Source of the DNA: an uncultured Pirellulaceae bacterium
GTDB taxonomy: Bacteria > Planctomycetota > Planctomycetia > Pirellulales > Pirellulaceae
Direction of reading: 5' to 3'
Length of the DNA stretch: 33,206 bases
Assembly: GCA_938003615.1 (NCBI GenBank)
Contig: CALKXO010000300.1
Span: forward strand, 1-33,206
In this document: in pieces, positions 13,973-32,018 of the stretch
How positions within the stretch are numbered: position 1 is the stretch's first letter
Layout of the letters: each line of letters starts with the position of its first letter
Translations under genes and position numbers: made by a program
The notes under the pieces: generated by a model
Told to the model about the DNA's origin: nothing
Databases searched by the model: none
What the model saw: the letters and a program-made list of their open reading frames with translations, nothing else

Positions 13973-15142
13973 TCAGCTAACTTTCACTTCGTCCAATGCG
14001 GCCTCGATCTGATCCAAGCTCGCGCCGAAGAGTGTTTGAGCCATTTGATCAAGCGACGCGCGCTCGCCTTCCATTCTGACAGTTCGGGCCGAGTGGGTGT
14101 AACTTTCGGCTGGCTTAAGCGCTAGCGCTGGACTGATCGTTTCCAGTTCGAAGAAGCCGCCTAATTTCCCGCCGGAATCGTTGGGCCCGTCGTTATAGGC
14201 ATTGATTACGTCGCCATCGAACGGATCGTCCTGGTGCTTCCACAGATTATTGGTGTATCCGGCAGGTGCTGATTCCGGCAGATTGAAATCGACGACTGCC
14301 AAAATTCCTGTTTCGGCAGTCCAGCTGCCCAGTCGCGAACAGGCGCGCGGGAAGGAGATTCCGAGCTTCGACCGGAAGTTTCCATCACCACGTAGGAATA
14401 TCAGCCCCAGCTCTTGGTCGACCTTCAACCGATCGCCAGAAAGCTTGCCAAAATAGTCTGCCGTTACGATCTGCCCCAGTTCATCGACATCGCCTTTTTT
14501 AAACGGCGCGATCAGTACCGCGTTAGGAGACGGCGGGTTCATGCACAGTGACCACAGCGCAATCAGACCTGTATCCTGTACCCAAGCTGATTCGGACGTG
14601 TTGGTGAGTTTGTTGTCCGCGACGTGCCCCACCAACCTTACGCTCTCGGGAATATCGACTTTCAAACCCTCTGCCACCGTTTCGCGCGACAGCAGTGTGA
14701 CTTTTCTCTCTAGCGAAAATTCAAACGTGAACCCGCTCATGTTCGTGACAGCGCTCTTCTTCAGATACGTCAGTGAGTCGGATTGGGTATCGATCAGCTC
14801 AAATGACTCGCTGTCGATGCAAGCAGGGGTGCGCCAGCTGGCGAAGTCCATTTTCTCAGATCCCGGTTCAAAGAAGACCGAAAACTGGCCTCCTTCTGGA
14901 GAGATCCAAATTCTGTCCTCGCCACCAAATAGGTTGATTTGGGGATCGACCATTCCTTTTTCGAAAGCATCGTAATTGATGTAGCCGTTGCTGTGCCCTT
15001 GGTCACCATTGGAGGAAGACGTCATCGTGCGGCCCTGAAGTTCAGCAACGCAAACCAGCTTGGCTCCGTCGGAATTGCTCAAGACCTGTGTTGGGTAGAA
15101 ACGGCTAATGAAGGCGAGGTCTTCTCCGAAATTATTGGGCAT
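13973..15142 (-). CDS. DUF6786-like protein of unknown function
   Basis: 389-aa ORF. GEDRIWISPEGGQFSVFFEPG, NTSESAWVQDTGLIALWSLCM, YTNNLWKHQDDPFDGDVINAYNDGPNDSGGKLGGFFELETISPALALKPAESYTHSARTVR resemble this planctomycete-enriched family from memory; not searched. Confidence 0.65.
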   Translation of the reverse strand: MPNNFGEDLAFISRFYPTQVLSNSDGAKLVCVAELQGRTMTSSSNGDQGHSNGYINYDAFEKGMVDPQINLFGGEDRIWISPEGGQFSVFFEPGSEKMDFASWRTPACIDSESFELIDTQSDSLTYLKKSAVTNMSGFTFEFSLERKVTLLSRETVAEGLKVDIPESVRLVGHVADNKLTNTSESAWVQDTGLIALWSLCMNPPSPNAVLIAPFKKGDVDELGQIVTADYFGKLSGDRLKVDQELGLIFLRGDGNFRSKLGISFPRACSRLGSWTAETGILAVVDFNLPESAPAGYTNNLWKHQDDPFDGDVINAYNDGPNDSGGKLGGFFELETISPALALKPAESYTHSARTVRMEGERASLDQMAQTLFGASLDQIEAALDEVKVS

Positions 15143-18523: not shown

Positions 18524-19156
18524 TTAGGCAGACACTTTCCGTTGGGTTGACTGCTCGCCGGCCTCTTTCGCGGACTCGTAGAGATACGGATTGAGCGTTG
18601 GATCGTTGTACATTTTGAATTGACGGTAGGTCAGGTGCCGCTTCTTGCCTGCGAAGAGGTCGTTCACTAACTGCTGTAAAGATTTTGCAAGTTCCGATTG
18701 CTGTAACAGGCAGACATTGATCTTTTGTTGAACCGATTCGCGATGCTGTTGGTCCACGTCGTCGCGCTCAAGTTGCTCGCGTAAATGATACAGCCGCAAA
18801 GACATGATAGAAAGCCGGTCGATAGCGCTGCCGGGCGTTTCGGTGTTCAATTGAGCGTCTGAGGATGGAGAGACGGTGTGACTGGACAAAAGTTCGGCGA
18901 CTTGGTCGTCCAGTTTTTCGATCCAATCGTTTCGTTGTTGGTTAAATCGATCGATAGACCGTTTGACACGGGCGATTTCTTGATCGGATACGTCAGGGCT
19001 ACGCGCGATATCTTCCTCGTGCCATAATTGATAGTTGAACGAATGCTGCGTGCAAACCGTCGCCAACAGATCGGCGGCGTTGTTTTCGATTGGTCCTCGG
19101 TGCCATTGAGCCACGGTGTCGGTTTGCAGCTGGATGATTTGTTCGATATCAATCAT
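18524..19156 (-). CDS. DUF4254 family protein
   Basis: 210 aa. LLATVCTQHSFNYQLWHEEDIARSPDVSDQEIARVKRSIDRFNQQRNDWIEKLD is typical of DUF4254. 18 nt from the EEP gene on the same strand. Confidence 0.75.
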   Translation of the reverse strand: MIDIEQIIQLQTDTVAQWHRGPIENNAADLLATVCTQHSFNYQLWHEEDIARSPDVSDQEIARVKRSIDRFNQQRNDWIEKLDDQVAELLSSHTVSPSSDAQLNTETPGSAIDRLSIMSLRLYHLREQLERDDVDQQHRESVQQKINVCLLQQSELAKSLQQLVNDLFAGKKRHLTYRQFKMYNDPTLNPYLYESAKEAGEQSTQRKVSA

Positions 19157-19342
19157 GGTTGGTAATTGCCAAAATGCGTTTGTGGAATCCTTCCAAAGGA
19201 TGACGCATTGTAGAATTTTTGCGGCAATTGCCCCAGATCAATTTTACCAAACCCGGGACGGGTGAATCGGCAGCGCCTGCTATACAGCGACCTTCCGTCG
19301 GCCTTCAATTGGACGTGCGATTCAACGGATAAAGAAAACATC

Positions 19343-20380
19343 ATGGATGAACAAGAAGTATTGAAGCCGAACACGTTCTTTTTGGAGGTCAGTGGAGCGG
19401 GCCTTCCTGAGGTGGATGGCTTGTTTGTTCCGTCAACCGCGCCTCCTGTCGAATCTGAATCGGGGATCGTTTCGAGTCCTGGCTATTGGAATGGCAGGAT
19501 GGCTTGGGATCGCGCTGATGGCAAAGCTGCGAGAAGCCCTGCCCTGTCGTACTCCAACACTTACAAATCTTGGAGGATCTGTCGACTTGACGGGCACCTT
19601 GCGTACGATGCGACTTGCGATGAAGCCATGCCACCGACCGACCGTGAGTGGCACGTCTATAAAAAGGGAGTTGCACCTGCGCCCAAAGTGGTGCTGCATC
19701 ATTTCGACCCTCGTCAGCCCTGCCCCGCGCCCAATGTTGTCTTTGTGCTTGGCGGTCCCGGTGCCGGAAAAGGCACGATGTGCGAACTGGCTGAATCGCA
19801 GCTTGGCTGGACGCATTTATCGACTGGTGATTTGATTCGCACCGAACAGGCGAAAGGCGGCCCGACCGCTGCCGCGATCGACGCGCTATTGGCTGACGGA
19901 CAACTGGTCCCCAACGAAATTGTCGTGACGTTATTGAAAGACACGATGGAATCGATCACGCGCACCACGGGAAAGAGAAATTTTCTGCTTGATGGTTTCC
20001 CACGGTCGTTAAATAATTTGGAGGGCTGGTACGAGTGTTTTGGTCGAAGTGCGGAGCTACCAAAAATGCTGTTTTTCGAGTGTCCTTACGAAGTTCTAGA
20101 GAAACGTATTCTCGGTCGCGCGAAGTACACTGGTAGAAACGACGATAATGTCGAAAGTATCAAACTGAGGTTCGATACTTTCAAAGCTGAAACGCTACCG
20201 ACCGTTGAGCTGTTCAAGAGCAAGAACAAATGCGTGGAAGTTGACACCAGTCTGGACCGCCAAACCGTCTATGCGCTGGTGGAAAAGAATCTGGCACGTT
20301 ACACCGATGAAGCGCTCGCCGCGCAGCCGTTGACCGAACGAGCCGAAATGTTGCTAGGGCTGAGACCTTTTCCGAAGTAG
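19343..20380 (+). CDS. UMP-CMP/adenylate kinase-type nucleoside monophosphate kinase with N-terminal protist-like module
   Basis: The ORF track opens at GTG 19262; ATG 19343 (MDEQEVLKPNTFFLEVSGAG) is the likelier start. P-loop FVLGGPGAGKGTMCELAE, HLSTGDLIR, FLLDGFPRSLNNLEGW, RILGRAKYTGRNDDN are NMP-kinase motifs. Confidence 0.88.
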   Translation: MDEQEVLKPNTFFLEVSGAGLPEVDGLFVPSTAPPVESESGIVSSPGYWNGRMAWDRADGKAARSPALSYSNTYKSWRICRLDGHLAYDATCDEAMPPTDREWHVYKKGVAPAPKVVLHHFDPRQPCPAPNVVFVLGGPGAGKGTMCELAESQLGWTHLSTGDLIRTEQAKGGPTAAAIDALLADGQLVPNEIVVTLLKDTMESITRTTGKRNFLLDGFPRSLNNLEGWYECFGRSAELPKMLFFECPYEVLEKRILGRAKYTGRNDDNVESIKLRFDTFKAETLPTVELFKSKNKCVEVDTSLDRQTVYALVEKNLARYTDEALAAQPLTERAEMLLGLRPFPK

Positions 20381-23115: not shown

Positions 23116-25191
23116 ATGTTCGCAAGCAGACTACTACTTCCCACAACATTTGCCTTAATTCCATGGCTTAGCGCCTGCTGTTGGGGCCAAAGCTACTCAC
23201 CGTCGCAAAATGGTTACCGAGGCTCCGCCGCTGCCGCCCCGGTGGGCCAAACAGCAATGCCGCCGTTTAGCCTACCTCATCAGGCAACACGGCCGCCAAT
23301 GTTTTCAGATCAACAGGGCAATGAGTATACAGCAATGTCTCCAAACAACTGGGGGCATCCGGCGACACAAAGCCGGACATATCCCAACACCATCGATGAA
23401 ACATCATTTTCGCCCACCCCGGTAGTGGTTGTCAATCAATCGGTCGCTCCGTCTGATTCAAACCCGCAGCTGCAATCAGCCATCGCTCCGCTGACAAATA
23501 CTGGCGTGCGTGTGGCTCATAATGATCTGCCTAAATCCAGTGATACTGCGTCTCCATTCCTTCAGGCAAGCTCCGACGGCAAACAAGGTTCACGATTCAG
23601 CAACGCCCGGTACACGCGCTCGCAAGATGTCGATTCCAAAATTCCTGATTTGTCCAGCAATGAAAATGGCGATGATGTACCGTTTCCATTTACTCGAAAG
23701 AAACAATCGCAACTTCCAGACTCTGTGGGGGTACCGACAGGAAACACGTGGCTAAGCCCTGAACTGGCTGCGACGCCCGCAGTCGATGCGGTCGTGTCGA
23801 ATCAAGCGCGGTCGGTCGAAGGAGCGCGGTCGGTCGAAGGAGTTCGGTCGTCGACGATCCTTGAATCGCAGAACGAGATGTTTTCGACGGCCGTCGAGTC
23901 GGAAATTGGGATATATCCTCAGTCGCGCGATGCATCGCCAATGATTCAGTCAAACGACTCAGTGCCTCTGACCTCGATTCAACCGAGTCCGGCTTTCCAG
24001 CAGCAGGGGCAAGTCTCGAATCCGATTCAGCCATCTTTCGGATTTGATTGCCCGGCCGCTGAGGCCATGCCAACGAACGTTCGACCCCAGCCATTTGGAG
24101 CGCCGCTGCAATCGCAACAAGCCTCCCCGCGACAAACCATCCAATGGGGTGATGTGAATTATGCAAACCACTTGGATCACCAATCGCAGCGCTCACAGCC
24201 GATGCTGCCTAATTTCCGACCCGACTTGGGGCACCGAGGCGTGATGCCAACGATCCGCAATCACCCGATTCGCGACGACGGAAAAAAGTTCGATCATGAA
24301 AACAAGAAAGTCGATTACCCGCCGTTCAAGGAAATTATTGCGACAGGAAAATTCTTCTACAACGCCGAAGTGAATGCTCTTCGCCCTTCGTTCCTTGGCA
24401 ACACAGGGTTGTCGGTCGACGGAACTGGATTCTCAGAAAGCCAACCTTTCGATTTCGACACCACCTACGCACCACAGTTCAAATTCGGGTTCGAATCCAA
24501 GTACGGCCCTGGCGTGGAGTTGAGCTACTTCAATTTGTCAGCCAATTCCAATACGCTGGCGTCGACCAACGATGGCACCGGCAGCGTGGCATCGATCGCA
24601 TCGGTAACAGGGCCGGGGCGATTCTCCCGCATCGGCGCGGACAACGTTGGAGATACGCTGACGGCAAACCACTCATTTGAAATGGAGACTTTTGGACTGA
24701 ATTTCTTCAAAGAGTTGAAGTTTCCCATCTCAAGATTGAACGGAAAATTCGGTTTCATGTACGCCAACGTGGCCCAGTCGTTGCTGGTTGACGTAAATGA
24801 CGGGGTCGGAACTCCCATCGGTGGTCTGAACAATACGACTGACTTCCGCGGTTACGGGCCGCAGTTTGCGCTGGAGTACTTTCGTCCGGTCGGCCATACG
24901 CCGCTGACGCTGGTGACCAGTTTCGGTGGTAAAGGTCTCTTCGGGCGTCGCGATCAATTTGTCAATAACGACGCCGCAGGTGTGGTGCGTCGTTTTGGGG
25001 CTGACGAGTTCATTACGGTTATCGATTTTGCTGGCGGTGTTCAGATGAAGAAGATGGTCGCTGATGGACGCTACTGGACCGCCAAGGTTGGCTACGTACA
25101 TCAGACGTGGCTGGGAGGCGGAACTGCGGTCGATCCGCAGGGCGACTTCGGCATCAACGGGTTCGCGTTCGGCATCGGATATAATCGCTAG
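23116..25191 (+). CDS. Putative outer-membrane beta-barrel protein with long low-complexity Ser/Pro/Gln-rich N-terminal region
   Basis: 691 aa. Signal-like N-terminus MFASRLLLPTTFALIPWLSACCWGQ, disordered region, C-terminal Gly/aromatic-rich segments (FKFGFESKYGPGVELSYFNLSA; GYGPQFALEYFRPVG; AKVGYVHQTWLGGG; FAFGIGYNR at the terminus). Confidence 0.65.
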   Translation: MFASRLLLPTTFALIPWLSACCWGQSYSPSQNGYRGSAAAAPVGQTAMPPFSLPHQATRPPMFSDQQGNEYTAMSPNNWGHPATQSRTYPNTIDETSFSPTPVVVVNQSVAPSDSNPQLQSAIAPLTNTGVRVAHNDLPKSSDTASPFLQASSDGKQGSRFSNARYTRSQDVDSKIPDLSSNENGDDVPFPFTRKKQSQLPDSVGVPTGNTWLSPELAATPAVDAVVSNQARSVEGARSVEGVRSSTILESQNEMFSTAVESEIGIYPQSRDASPMIQSNDSVPLTSIQPSPAFQQQGQVSNPIQPSFGFDCPAAEAMPTNVRPQPFGAPLQSQQASPRQTIQWGDVNYANHLDHQSQRSQPMLPNFRPDLGHRGVMPTIRNHPIRDDGKKFDHENKKVDYPPFKEIIATGKFFYNAEVNALRPSFLGNTGLSVDGTGFSESQPFDFDTTYAPQFKFGFESKYGPGVELSYFNLSANSNTLASTNDGTGSVASIASVTGPGRFSRIGADNVGDTLTANHSFEMETFGLNFFKELKFPISRLNGKFGFMYANVAQSLLVDVNDGVGTPIGGLNNTTDFRGYGPQFALEYFRPVGHTPLTLVTSFGGKGLFGRRDQFVNNDAAGVVRRFGADEFITVIDFAGGVQMKKMVADGRYWTAKVGYVHQTWLGGGTAVDPQGDFGINGFAFGIGYNR
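23806..23841 (+). repeat. Perfect 18-bp tandem repeat encoding ARSVEG x2 in the 691-aa protein
   Basis: gcgcggtcggtcgaagga repeated twice, then partly again (gttcggtcg). Confidence 0.9.
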
Positions 25192-29306: not shown

Positions 29307-32018
29307 CTAACTGCAAAACTGTCGAATACATTCGTAAAGTTGCTCGGGTGTCTGCGCCGAACGCAAGTCCGCGAGGCATTGGTCGTTGAGCGCCATCCGG
29401 GAAAGTTGCGATAGGATTTCCAGATGGACCTGCCGATCGGCAGGAGGTCCCATCGTGAAGAAACAAATATCGACCTTGGCTCCGTTGGGGGCACCAAAAT
29501 TGACTTCATTTGCAAGCGTGTAAACGGCTATTGTCGAACTGCCCGTTGGAGCGCGAGACAACGTCGCGTGCGGCATCGCGATGCCATTGCCGACCGAAGT
29601 AACTTGCATCTGTTCACGCTCCCATAAGGCCGTACTAATGATCAGCGGGCTGATTCTATCATCAAACTCTCCCGCCATTTCCTCGGTCGCGAGTCGGAAC
29701 AGCTCTTCTTTCTTTTGAACCTTGACCTTGGTTTTAATGGAATCTACCGAGATGTACTTCATCAGGTCAAAGTCACTTTTGGAGTCGCGATGAACGACGT
29801 CGAACGCATCGTGAGTTTGTTCGCTGGGCGTCTTCAACCACAGCACGCTGCAAGCACTGTTGCGCGTCAGCAGATCTTTCTCGGTGCCGAAAAGCCGTGT
29901 CGAAAAAGTACGCGGTGGCGGAGCGCCCATCACCAGTAGGTCAAATCTTTCAGTCGCTTTTTCAATGGCAGACATTTCGCTGGCACCAGCGAGCTGGACC
30001 ATCTCGGTCTTGTTCACGCAGAGATCGCGCAGCTGATCAACATAGTCAACTTTCGCCTGGACGTTTATCGGCTCCTCGTTCTCATTCACGAAACAAATGA
30101 AACTCAAATCAGCGTTGTAGATGTCAGCCAGATGGTCAGCAGTCGTGACCACCAATGAGTCATGCGGTCCCGGTTCGGCAAACACCATGATCTTGCGGAT
30201 GTAGCGCACGCCAGCGTCCTTGAACACGGCAAGATTGCACGGAAGATGATCTTGAAGCCAGCCAAGTTGATTTTGGAAGGTGATTCCTTTGGTACGTCGC
30301 GACGCGGACTCCATCACCACCCACTCGCAGTGCAATCGATCCGCAACGTTGTGGATCGTCTTGACGACGTCGTGAGAAACCGTGGTGTTGTACTCTAAAT
30401 TCACGTCTTCTTCCTCGGCCATCACATGGATGCGGCGGCTGAGAGCAATCGAAAGATGATCCTCTTCAAGGACGTCAGACAAAAGCAGCTGCTCCGGAAC
30501 TTCGGTCACGTGCAGAACTTCAAGCTTACGATGGTGAGCAAGGGCGGCTCCCATTTCGACTAGCGTCTCGGGAGAACGTTCACTACCGAACAGCGGAACC
30601 ACAACGGCGGCTTCGCCGGGCAGTTCATCATCTAGATCGTGCGGCGCTTCGTCGTCGACTTCTTCTTTTCCTGCTCCAACGAGATCGGTACGTCGCCCCA
30701 TTCGCCCAACCACGCCCAAACGTGATGTTTGATGGCGACCATAAGCCAGATAGGACGCTCCGCCGATAAGACAAATGCCCGTGATTGCAATCAGACTCGT
30801 CAGTCCCATCGACCACAACAAGATGGCACCAGTCAGAATACCAATGATTTGAATAATCGGATAAAACGGAGCTCGAAATTTTGGTTGATACCAAGTCGCA
30901 GCACTCTCGCGTAACACGATGACCGTTCCGCAAATAAACATGAAGGCCACAATCATAAATGCGCTGGCCAGTTTCGCGATATTCTCAATCGGGAGAAACA
31001 AAATGCTGATCGCCATCGTCACAGCAGTTAGCAAAATACACCAGACAGGTGTTTTGAAGTTCTCGTTGATCTCATGGAGCTTTTCAGGCAATAGCTGATC
31101 GCGGCTCATCGCAAAAGGAAACCTTGAAGCCGCTAGTAAACCTGCTACGGACATCGAAGTCATCGTCAAGACGGCAAACACGGCTGCGATGTAGCCAACA
31201 ACCGGCCCGCCGAGAATCGTAGCCATGGTATAGATCGGATGTAAGTCGGGTTCGTAGCTTCCGTCAGTCTTATTGTAGCCGCTCAGCTCTGTGTGAGGCA
31301 CGTTGGCAACCAAGACGAACACCACAAAGACGTAGATGCACATCACAAGGATCCACGATATCAAAATGCCTAGCGGCAGATTGCGCTCGGGATTTTTGAC
31401 CTCTTCTGCGATGGCAGCGACTTTGGTGACACCCGCGTAGGAAACGTAAACGAACGCGGCAGCTGCGATGAAACCGGTGGTGCCTTTTTTAAATCCATCC
31501 TCGAAATTGCTCCACTCCACCGTCGAGACACCGTACAACGACATGATGATCAGCAACACCAGCACGACACCCACGATCACTTTTTGAAGCTTACCGATGA
31601 TACTCACGCCAACGATGTTCAGCCCAGTGATACAAACCAGTAAAGCGAGTGCCACTGGTTTCTCGGGCACCACCACCAGCACCGACAGGTAAGCCGAAAA
31701 ACCGATGAGTGCAAAAGCGCTTTTTAGCAACAGAGACAGCCAGAGCCCGATTCCTGATACGGTTCCCGCCAAGGGGCCAAAGGCTCTTTCGAGATAAACG
31801 TAAGTGCCACCAGAAGTTGGCATCGCGGTGGCCAGTTCGGATTTCGACAATGCCGCGGGCAAGACGCCCAGCCCGGCGGCTAGGTAGGCCAGCCAAACCG
31901 TGGGCCCTGTTTTAGCTGCCGCTAGACCGGGAAGTACAAAAATGCCGCTCCCCAGCATCGCACTGATGCTGATCGCGACTACGGCGCTAAGGCCGATGCT
32001 TCGTTCGAGTGATTTCAT
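29307..32018 (-). CDS. APC-superfamily amino-acid permease fused to tandem USP-like domains and a C-terminal PTS EIIA (Fru/Ntr-type) domain
   Basis: 903 aa. N-terminal permease (SISAMLGSGIFVLPGLAAAKTGPTVWLAYLAAGLG), USP-like regions in the middle (HCEWVVMESASRRTKG; FDLLVMGAPPP), C-terminal EIIA-like VTSVGNGIAMPHATL with candidate phosphoacceptor His. Confidence 0.85.
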   Translation of the reverse strand: MKSLERSIGLSAVVAISISAMLGSGIFVLPGLAAAKTGPTVWLAYLAAGLGVLPAALSKSELATAMPTSGGTYVYLERAFGPLAGTVSGIGLWLSLLLKSAFALIGFSAYLSVLVVVPEKPVALALLVCITGLNIVGVSIIGKLQKVIVGVVLVLLIIMSLYGVSTVEWSNFEDGFKKGTTGFIAAAAFVYVSYAGVTKVAAIAEEVKNPERNLPLGILISWILVMCIYVFVVFVLVANVPHTELSGYNKTDGSYEPDLHPIYTMATILGGPVVGYIAAVFAVLTMTSMSVAGLLAASRFPFAMSRDQLLPEKLHEINENFKTPVWCILLTAVTMAISILFLPIENIAKLASAFMIVAFMFICGTVIVLRESAATWYQPKFRAPFYPIIQIIGILTGAILLWSMGLTSLIAITGICLIGGASYLAYGRHQTSRLGVVGRMGRRTDLVGAGKEEVDDEAPHDLDDELPGEAAVVVPLFGSERSPETLVEMGAALAHHRKLEVLHVTEVPEQLLLSDVLEEDHLSIALSRRIHVMAEEEDVNLEYNTTVSHDVVKTIHNVADRLHCEWVVMESASRRTKGITFQNQLGWLQDHLPCNLAVFKDAGVRYIRKIMVFAEPGPHDSLVVTTADHLADIYNADLSFICFVNENEEPINVQAKVDYVDQLRDLCVNKTEMVQLAGASEMSAIEKATERFDLLVMGAPPPRTFSTRLFGTEKDLLTRNSACSVLWLKTPSEQTHDAFDVVHRDSKSDFDLMKYISVDSIKTKVKVQKKEELFRLATEEMAGEFDDRISPLIISTALWEREQMQVTSVGNGIAMPHATLSRAPTGSSTIAVYTLANEVNFGAPNGAKVDICFFTMGPPADRQVHLEILSQLSRMALNDQCLADLRSAQTPEQLYECIRQFCS

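Follow-up and report, generated by a model that had tools for sequence, protein, structure and literature searches.

A UMP-CMP-kinase-like gene with a conserved N-terminal module in an uncultured Pirellulaceae bacterium, its relatives in other bacterial phyla, and free-standing copies of the module

Within the 33,206-nucleotide stretch of DNA analysed here (the window), an uncultured Pirellulaceae bacterium carries a gene whose predicted product joins an N-terminal module to a kinase domain resembling the UMP-CMP kinases of eukaryotes. Enzymes of this class are typically eukaryotic, the bacterial counterparts being PyrH and Cmk. The reading that we prefer, and regard with some reservation as probable, is that this is an accessory, horizontally spread UMP/CMP kinase coupled to an autonomous binding or regulatory module. 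The kinase domain is predicted to convert ATP and UMP or CMP to ADP and UDP or CDP, and the fusion enzyme would work alongside the canonical Cmk of the cell. At the N-terminus, the beta-rich module of about 115 residues would be a distinct autonomous domain, most likely binding a ligand or partner, and it would modulate or localise the kinase while perhaps also having a target of its own; the bound molecule and the action on the kinase are hypothetical at this stage. We found no description of the fusion protein in the literature readable without subscription.

Gene model and kinase domain

The open reading frame called originally (19262..20380, forward strand) is present in the window, but its start had been placed 27 codons too far upstream. 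Full-length homologues (n = 80) begin at or near the position equivalent to ATG 19343, and the sequence upstream of that position is mostly unrelated among them, such that the true start is almost certainly this ATG rather than GTG 19262 and the protein has 345 rather than 372 aa (Table 1). The gene's GC content (0.53) and GC3 (0.57) are near the values of neighbouring genes and thus give no signal of recent arrival. Elsewhere in the window we observed a 903-aa protein in which an amino-acid permease is fused to a universal stress domain and to a PTS EIIA domain (29307-32018, reverse strand), a 691-aa ORF with zero Pfam matches at E<=0.001 (23116-25191, forward strand), and members of the function-unknown families DUF6786 (13973-15142, reverse strand) and DUF4254 (18524-19156, reverse strand).

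Table 1. Coordinates of the fusion gene, free-standing module genes and neighbouring helicase genes (positions without a locus prefix are those of the window)
Feature	Position	Strand	Basis
Module-UMP/CMP kinase fusion gene, 345 aa	19343..20380, stop included	+	start from 80 homologues
In-frame upstream stretch, probably untranslated	19262..19342	+	unconserved in homologues
N-terminal beta-rich module, residues 10-125	19370..19717	+	conservation, AlphaFold2 strands, free-standing homologues
UMP-CMP-type NMP kinase domain, residues 129-317	19727..20293	+	Pfam/NCBIfam, PDB, Foldseek, tree
P-loop GGPGAGKGT, residues 137-145	19751..19777	+	sequence; conservation in 62 aligned members
Asn225, putative base-reading position	20015..20017	+	alignment; invariant in 62 aligned members
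Predicted catalytic arginines R255, R259, R265, R276 and D267-D268-N269 (lid/core)	20105..20170	+	Dictyostelium alignment; invariant
Conserved C-terminal tail, residues 318-345, past the kinase fold	20294..20377	+	E332, E335, L337-G339 invariant
Free module, Nitrincola A-D6	L146:5206-5577	-	profile search
Free module, Halomonas RGIG5693	L147:5175-5546	-	profile search
Free module, Marinobacter Kmv20	L155:3835-4215	+	profile search
Free module, G829	L177:1504-1875	-	profile search
Free module, Halomonadaceae G682, genome without fused copy	L167:5344-5715	+	profile search
Free module, Halomonadaceae G690, genome without fused copy	L168:5418-5789	-	profile search
UvrD-like helicase	L054:3832-5910
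UvrD-like helicase	L067:3907-5982
UvrD-like helicase	L077:1679-3757
UvrD-like helicase	L062:11391-13034
UvrD-like helicase	L079:11231-11959

Profile comparisons placed the kinase domain, a short NMP kinase of the ADK fold of about 190 aa with its motifs intact, nearest to the UMP-CMP class. Pfam PF00406 (ADK) matched residues 135-295 (E 5e-36), and the best NCBIfam model was TIGR01359 (UMP_CMP_kin_fam; 182.7 bits over residues 132-317), followed by the AK1 type (143.9 bits) and the best bacterial-type adk model (126.6 bits). As the score lies under the curated TIGR01359 cut-off of 207.6, which no carrier in a 199-genome sample of the phylum reached, the protein is better labelled UMP-CMP-kinase-like than a curated member. 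Four family members in that sample nevertheless scored 185-193 bits with the model, whereas all other kinases there, ordinary Adk included, scored at most 149. Cmk models showed only P-loop-level similarity to the window protein (E 0.03-0.24), with PF02224 (Cmk) scoring 11.5 bits where its cut-off is 26 and falling short of a full-length match.

Structure comparisons pointed the same way. The nearest PDB structures by sequence were the Dictyostelium, yeast and human UMP-CMP kinases, and Foldseek with the full-length AlphaFold2 model (pLDDT 85.5) gave Dictyostelium UMP-CMP kinase as top match (41% identity, TM 0.83 on target) and yeast uridylate kinase as second. Over the kinase domain, likeness to Dictyostelium UMPK (1qf9/2ukd), human CMPK1 (1tev) and yeast Ura6 (1uky) amounts to about 37-41% identity and a TM (target) of 0.81-0.88, with the short lid, the P-loop and the arginine set in common. 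The window protein differs from these eukaryotic enzymes in adding the N-terminal module of about 125 residues and a C-terminal tail of 28 residues, and its family differs in being bacterial, in its long stem branch and in scoring under the TIGR01359 cut-off. Bacterial Adk has the same PF00406 fold, mostly at 25-38% identity to the window kinase, but carries Gln at the base-reading position and lacks the profile and tree affinity with UMP-CMP kinases. Bacterial Cmk (PF02224/TIGR00017) belongs to a distinct protein family, although its reaction is presumed to be the same.

Among 62 aligned members, residues R166, R221, R255, R259, R265 and R276 are invariant, the last four aligning with Dictyostelium R127, R131, R137 and R148. 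In the P-loop G137, P139, G140 and G142-T145 are invariant, G138 is conserved in at least 90% and A141 is not invariant. Invariant too is Asn225, which follows the DGFPR motif and whose equivalent is Asn in Dictyostelium and human UMP-CMP kinases, while yeast Ura6 and the adenylate kinases compared have Gln. We take this to be a base-contacting, pyrimidine-reading residue, as in the Dictyostelium structures; since yeast uridylate kinase has Gln there, Asn225 alone would not fix specificity. From such features we infer both catalysis and a preference for UMP or CMP. The original claim of a eukaryotic UMP-CMP-class kinase, as opposed to an ordinary bacterial Adk or Cmk, is supported by profile score, PDB sequence comparison, Foldseek, the tree and Asn225.

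The tree comprised 56 kinase domains and only three eukaryotic UMP-CMP kinases, which the window family joined with support of 98/89, apart from bacterial Adk, on a long stem branch of 1.35 changes per column. Approximately unbiased (AU) tests did not reject a UMP-CMP clade without the window family (p 0.33), a eukaryotic clade without it (p 0.41) or its placement on the Adk side (p 0.20). Inter-domain transfer, which had been suggested originally, therefore survives in a weaker form: we read the kinase as eukaryote-type, and its eukaryotic origin is likely but not proven, with the 98/89 grouping speaking for it and the unrejected alternatives (p 0.20-0.41) against.

Distribution and horizontal spread

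Homologues that share 72-85% identity with the window protein over its full length number at least 80 and occur in Planctomycetota, Verrucomicrobiota, Bdellovibrionota (Halobacteriovorax), Myxococcota, Gemmatimonadota, other phyla and Pseudomonadota, the last including Halomonas, Marinobacter, Nitrincola, Granulosicoccaceae and Burkholderiales; one lies on plasmid NZ_CP101744.1 of Comamonas sp. C11. The fused gene is nonetheless rare: in the window's phylum 8 of 392 genomes carry it, as do 7 of 250 genomes of the family around one Halomonas and 5 of 163 genomes around Marinobacter.

Comparison with Adk revealed that the identity of the fusion protein stays nearly flat while that of Adk tracks host relatedness. 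Marinobacter zhanjiangensis and Halomonas DQ26W share 93% identity in the fusion protein and 72% in Adk, two Halomonadaceae share 90% and 96%, and planctomycetes and gammaproteobacteria share 69-77% and 37-47%, respectively. The pattern points to horizontal spread of a slowly evolving single gene, and transfer of the gene among bacterial phyla is well supported. It holds in isolates alone, leaving aside two metagenome-assembled genomes (MAGs) with doubtful labels (loci L032 and L034): these carry near-identical genes under the labels Latescibacterota and Gemmatimonadetes, and one of the two is probably mislabelled or misbinned.

A viral source was considered and set aside. Neither the full protein nor the module alignment matched viral contigs, phages gave ordinary kinases only, and matches in BFVD were kinases up to about one domain long. 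In Adhaeretor mobilis the intact gene is preceded by a truncated copy of its first ~33 codons (L148:2880-3017), and an unrelated 145-aa ORF separates the two.

The N-terminal module, fused and alone

That the N-terminal region is a real conserved module, as first proposed, was confirmed across 81 sequences, with 43% of module positions (residues 10-125) identical in at least 98% of them against 32% of kinase positions. Mean entropy was 0.53 in the module and 0.73 in the kinase (Mann-Whitney p 0.02), and median dN/dS was 0.09 and 0.10, such that the module is at least as conserved as the kinase and more so by these measures. Many of its aromatic and charged residues are invariant (W49, W55, D56, R57, D59, W77, R78, R81, D83 and H85), and it may, much as originally proposed, resemble a V.GAG..VNG.Y...W.I...GW...AP.P-like pattern of algal and oomycete proteins. 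The first ~125 residues had no match in Pfam, NCBIfam or PADLOC and matched PHROGs at chance level only. A module profile retrieved nothing from the PDB at E<=10, and the module had no match in viral contigs, phages or plasmids other than the Comamonas one. Agrobacterium matches reaching into residues 62-130 were discounted, as they seem to be hits to Adk whose alignment runs on into an adjacent gene.

In the full-length AlphaFold2 model the module forms a beta-rich domain of good confidence. AlphaFold2 on the module alone, with a shallower alignment, gave a poor model (pLDDT 53.7), so the fold rests on the full-length model; the poor result may reflect packing on the kinase or merely alignment depth. 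A Foldseek search with the low-confidence module model (best E 0.24) was uninterpretable.

Profile searches of whole genomes revealed that the module also exists as a separate gene of about 124 codons in six genomes of the Halomonas/Marinobacter/Nitrincola group, and this free-standing occurrence is new here. The free modules stop at, or a few codons from, the same DPR position as the fused module, and together they form one clade (SH-aLRT 98) inside the proteobacterial fused modules, by which nesting the fusion was probably the earlier state and the split the derived one. Many pairs of free modules show saturation at synonymous sites, dN is 0.01-0.09 and dN/dS, where computable, is 0.02-0.08; such strong purifying selection indicates that these are functional genes. 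S40 and Y74, invariant in 81/81 fused copies, are replaced by A and F in 6/6 free modules and are, as a hypothesis, candidate kinase-contact positions. The module thus probably does something independent of the kinase; the sensory or ligand-binding role suggested originally is putative, but an autonomous function is likely given the free-standing copies. A decayed module remnant lies in G670 near a site syntenic with the Halomonas RGIG5693 copy, and the fused gene of the MAG BWSM_10 is preceded, at a distance of a few bases and in the same orientation, by a further module gene. Immediately upstream of the free module gene of G682 we noted, by eye, a macrodomain-like protein (L167:4785-5324).

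These observations invite a bolder account, which we put forward tentatively and would not yet lean on. The module might be a new autonomous regulatory or catalytic domain that entered bacteria together with a eukaryotic UMP-CMP kinase through one inter-domain transfer and then spread among marine bacteria, the two travelling as a single gene. In Halomonas/Marinobacter-type bacteria it would later have separated to become a free protein that acts in trans, either on the fused enzyme or on the cellular target that both share.

At the other extreme, the protein could be an extra salvage pyrimidine kinase whose module is a passive structural extension stabilising it. Its intact kinase motifs would suit such an enzyme, and AlphaFold2 reached a confident model of the module only when given the full-length protein, as if it were packed on the kinase. 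Yet a passive extension would hardly be expected to be more conserved than the enzyme it stabilises, nor to stand alone under strong purifying selection in six genomes, two of which have no fused copy, and we consider this explanation unlikely.

Host kinases, gene neighbours and possible roles

A separate canonical cmk, which the original prediction had named as something to look for, was found in the window's own genome (contig C398) and in 19/19 other carrier genomes, which makes the fusion kinase an additional enzyme. The idea that it replaces adk was rejected, since 19/19 other carriers have a further ADK-family gene. In the window's own genome, which is 87% complete, no PF00406 gene was found other than the fused kinase on contig C300, and adk is probably missing there through incomplete assembly.

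All-against-all gene comparison of 81 loci revealed no neighbour common to all. The high-count neighbour clusters were either frame shadows of the fusion gene or common planctomycete families such as sulfatases, and we set them aside. In three proteobacterial loci the kinase gene adjoins that of a UvrD-like helicase of about 692 aa, which lies a few kb off in two Marinobacter loci. The Comamonas plasmid locus (L085) and one Marinobacter locus (L062) have RF3 and a NUDIX hydrolase in common, and another Marinobacter locus (L064) has SulP and a cyclopropane synthase, as on the Comamonas plasmid. The island on that plasmid (L085:5773-16633) holds a SulP transporter, a universal stress protein, a DksA-like zinc finger, a cyclopropane synthase, RF3, a diguanylate cyclase and a NUDIX hydrolase, with a site-specific integrase nearby. 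Some proteobacterial neighbours (UvrD-like helicase, RF3, NUDIX, cyclopropane synthase and SulP) suggest a stress or nucleic-acid context; as the helicase, RF3 and NUDIX genes occur in few loci only, and the neighbours are not universal, we treat this as a lead and not as a system.

It is in this light that a different acceptor can be weighed, whereby the module would present or recognise a modified nucleotide, an RNA end or a small metabolite and UMP/CMP would not be the physiological substrate. A host already equipped with canonical Cmk, the unusually many aromatic and charged residues that are invariant in the module, and the RF3, UvrD-like helicase and NUDIX genes near some proteobacterial copies would all fit; the active site, however, matches that of UMP-CMP kinases down to the base-contacting Asn, and those neighbours are not universal, which leaves the proposal rather improbable in our judgement. 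An anti-phage or other conflict gene altering the nucleotide pool is scarcely credible, for although the distribution is patchy and of a single gene, and a plasmid island carries one copy close to an integrase, there is no PADLOC match, no full-length relative in phages or viruses and no defence-gene neighbour common to the loci, and the sequence evolves very slowly, unlike most conflict genes.

At least 80 members of this bacterial family bring a eukaryote-type kinase into genomes that already have Cmk, the carriers being some marine and salt-loving bacteria. The module represents a new domain family that is at least as constrained as the enzyme to which it is fused and that also exists alone. 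Strains with the fusion only, the module only, both, or neither occur inside one bacterial family and offer an experimental handle on what the module does.
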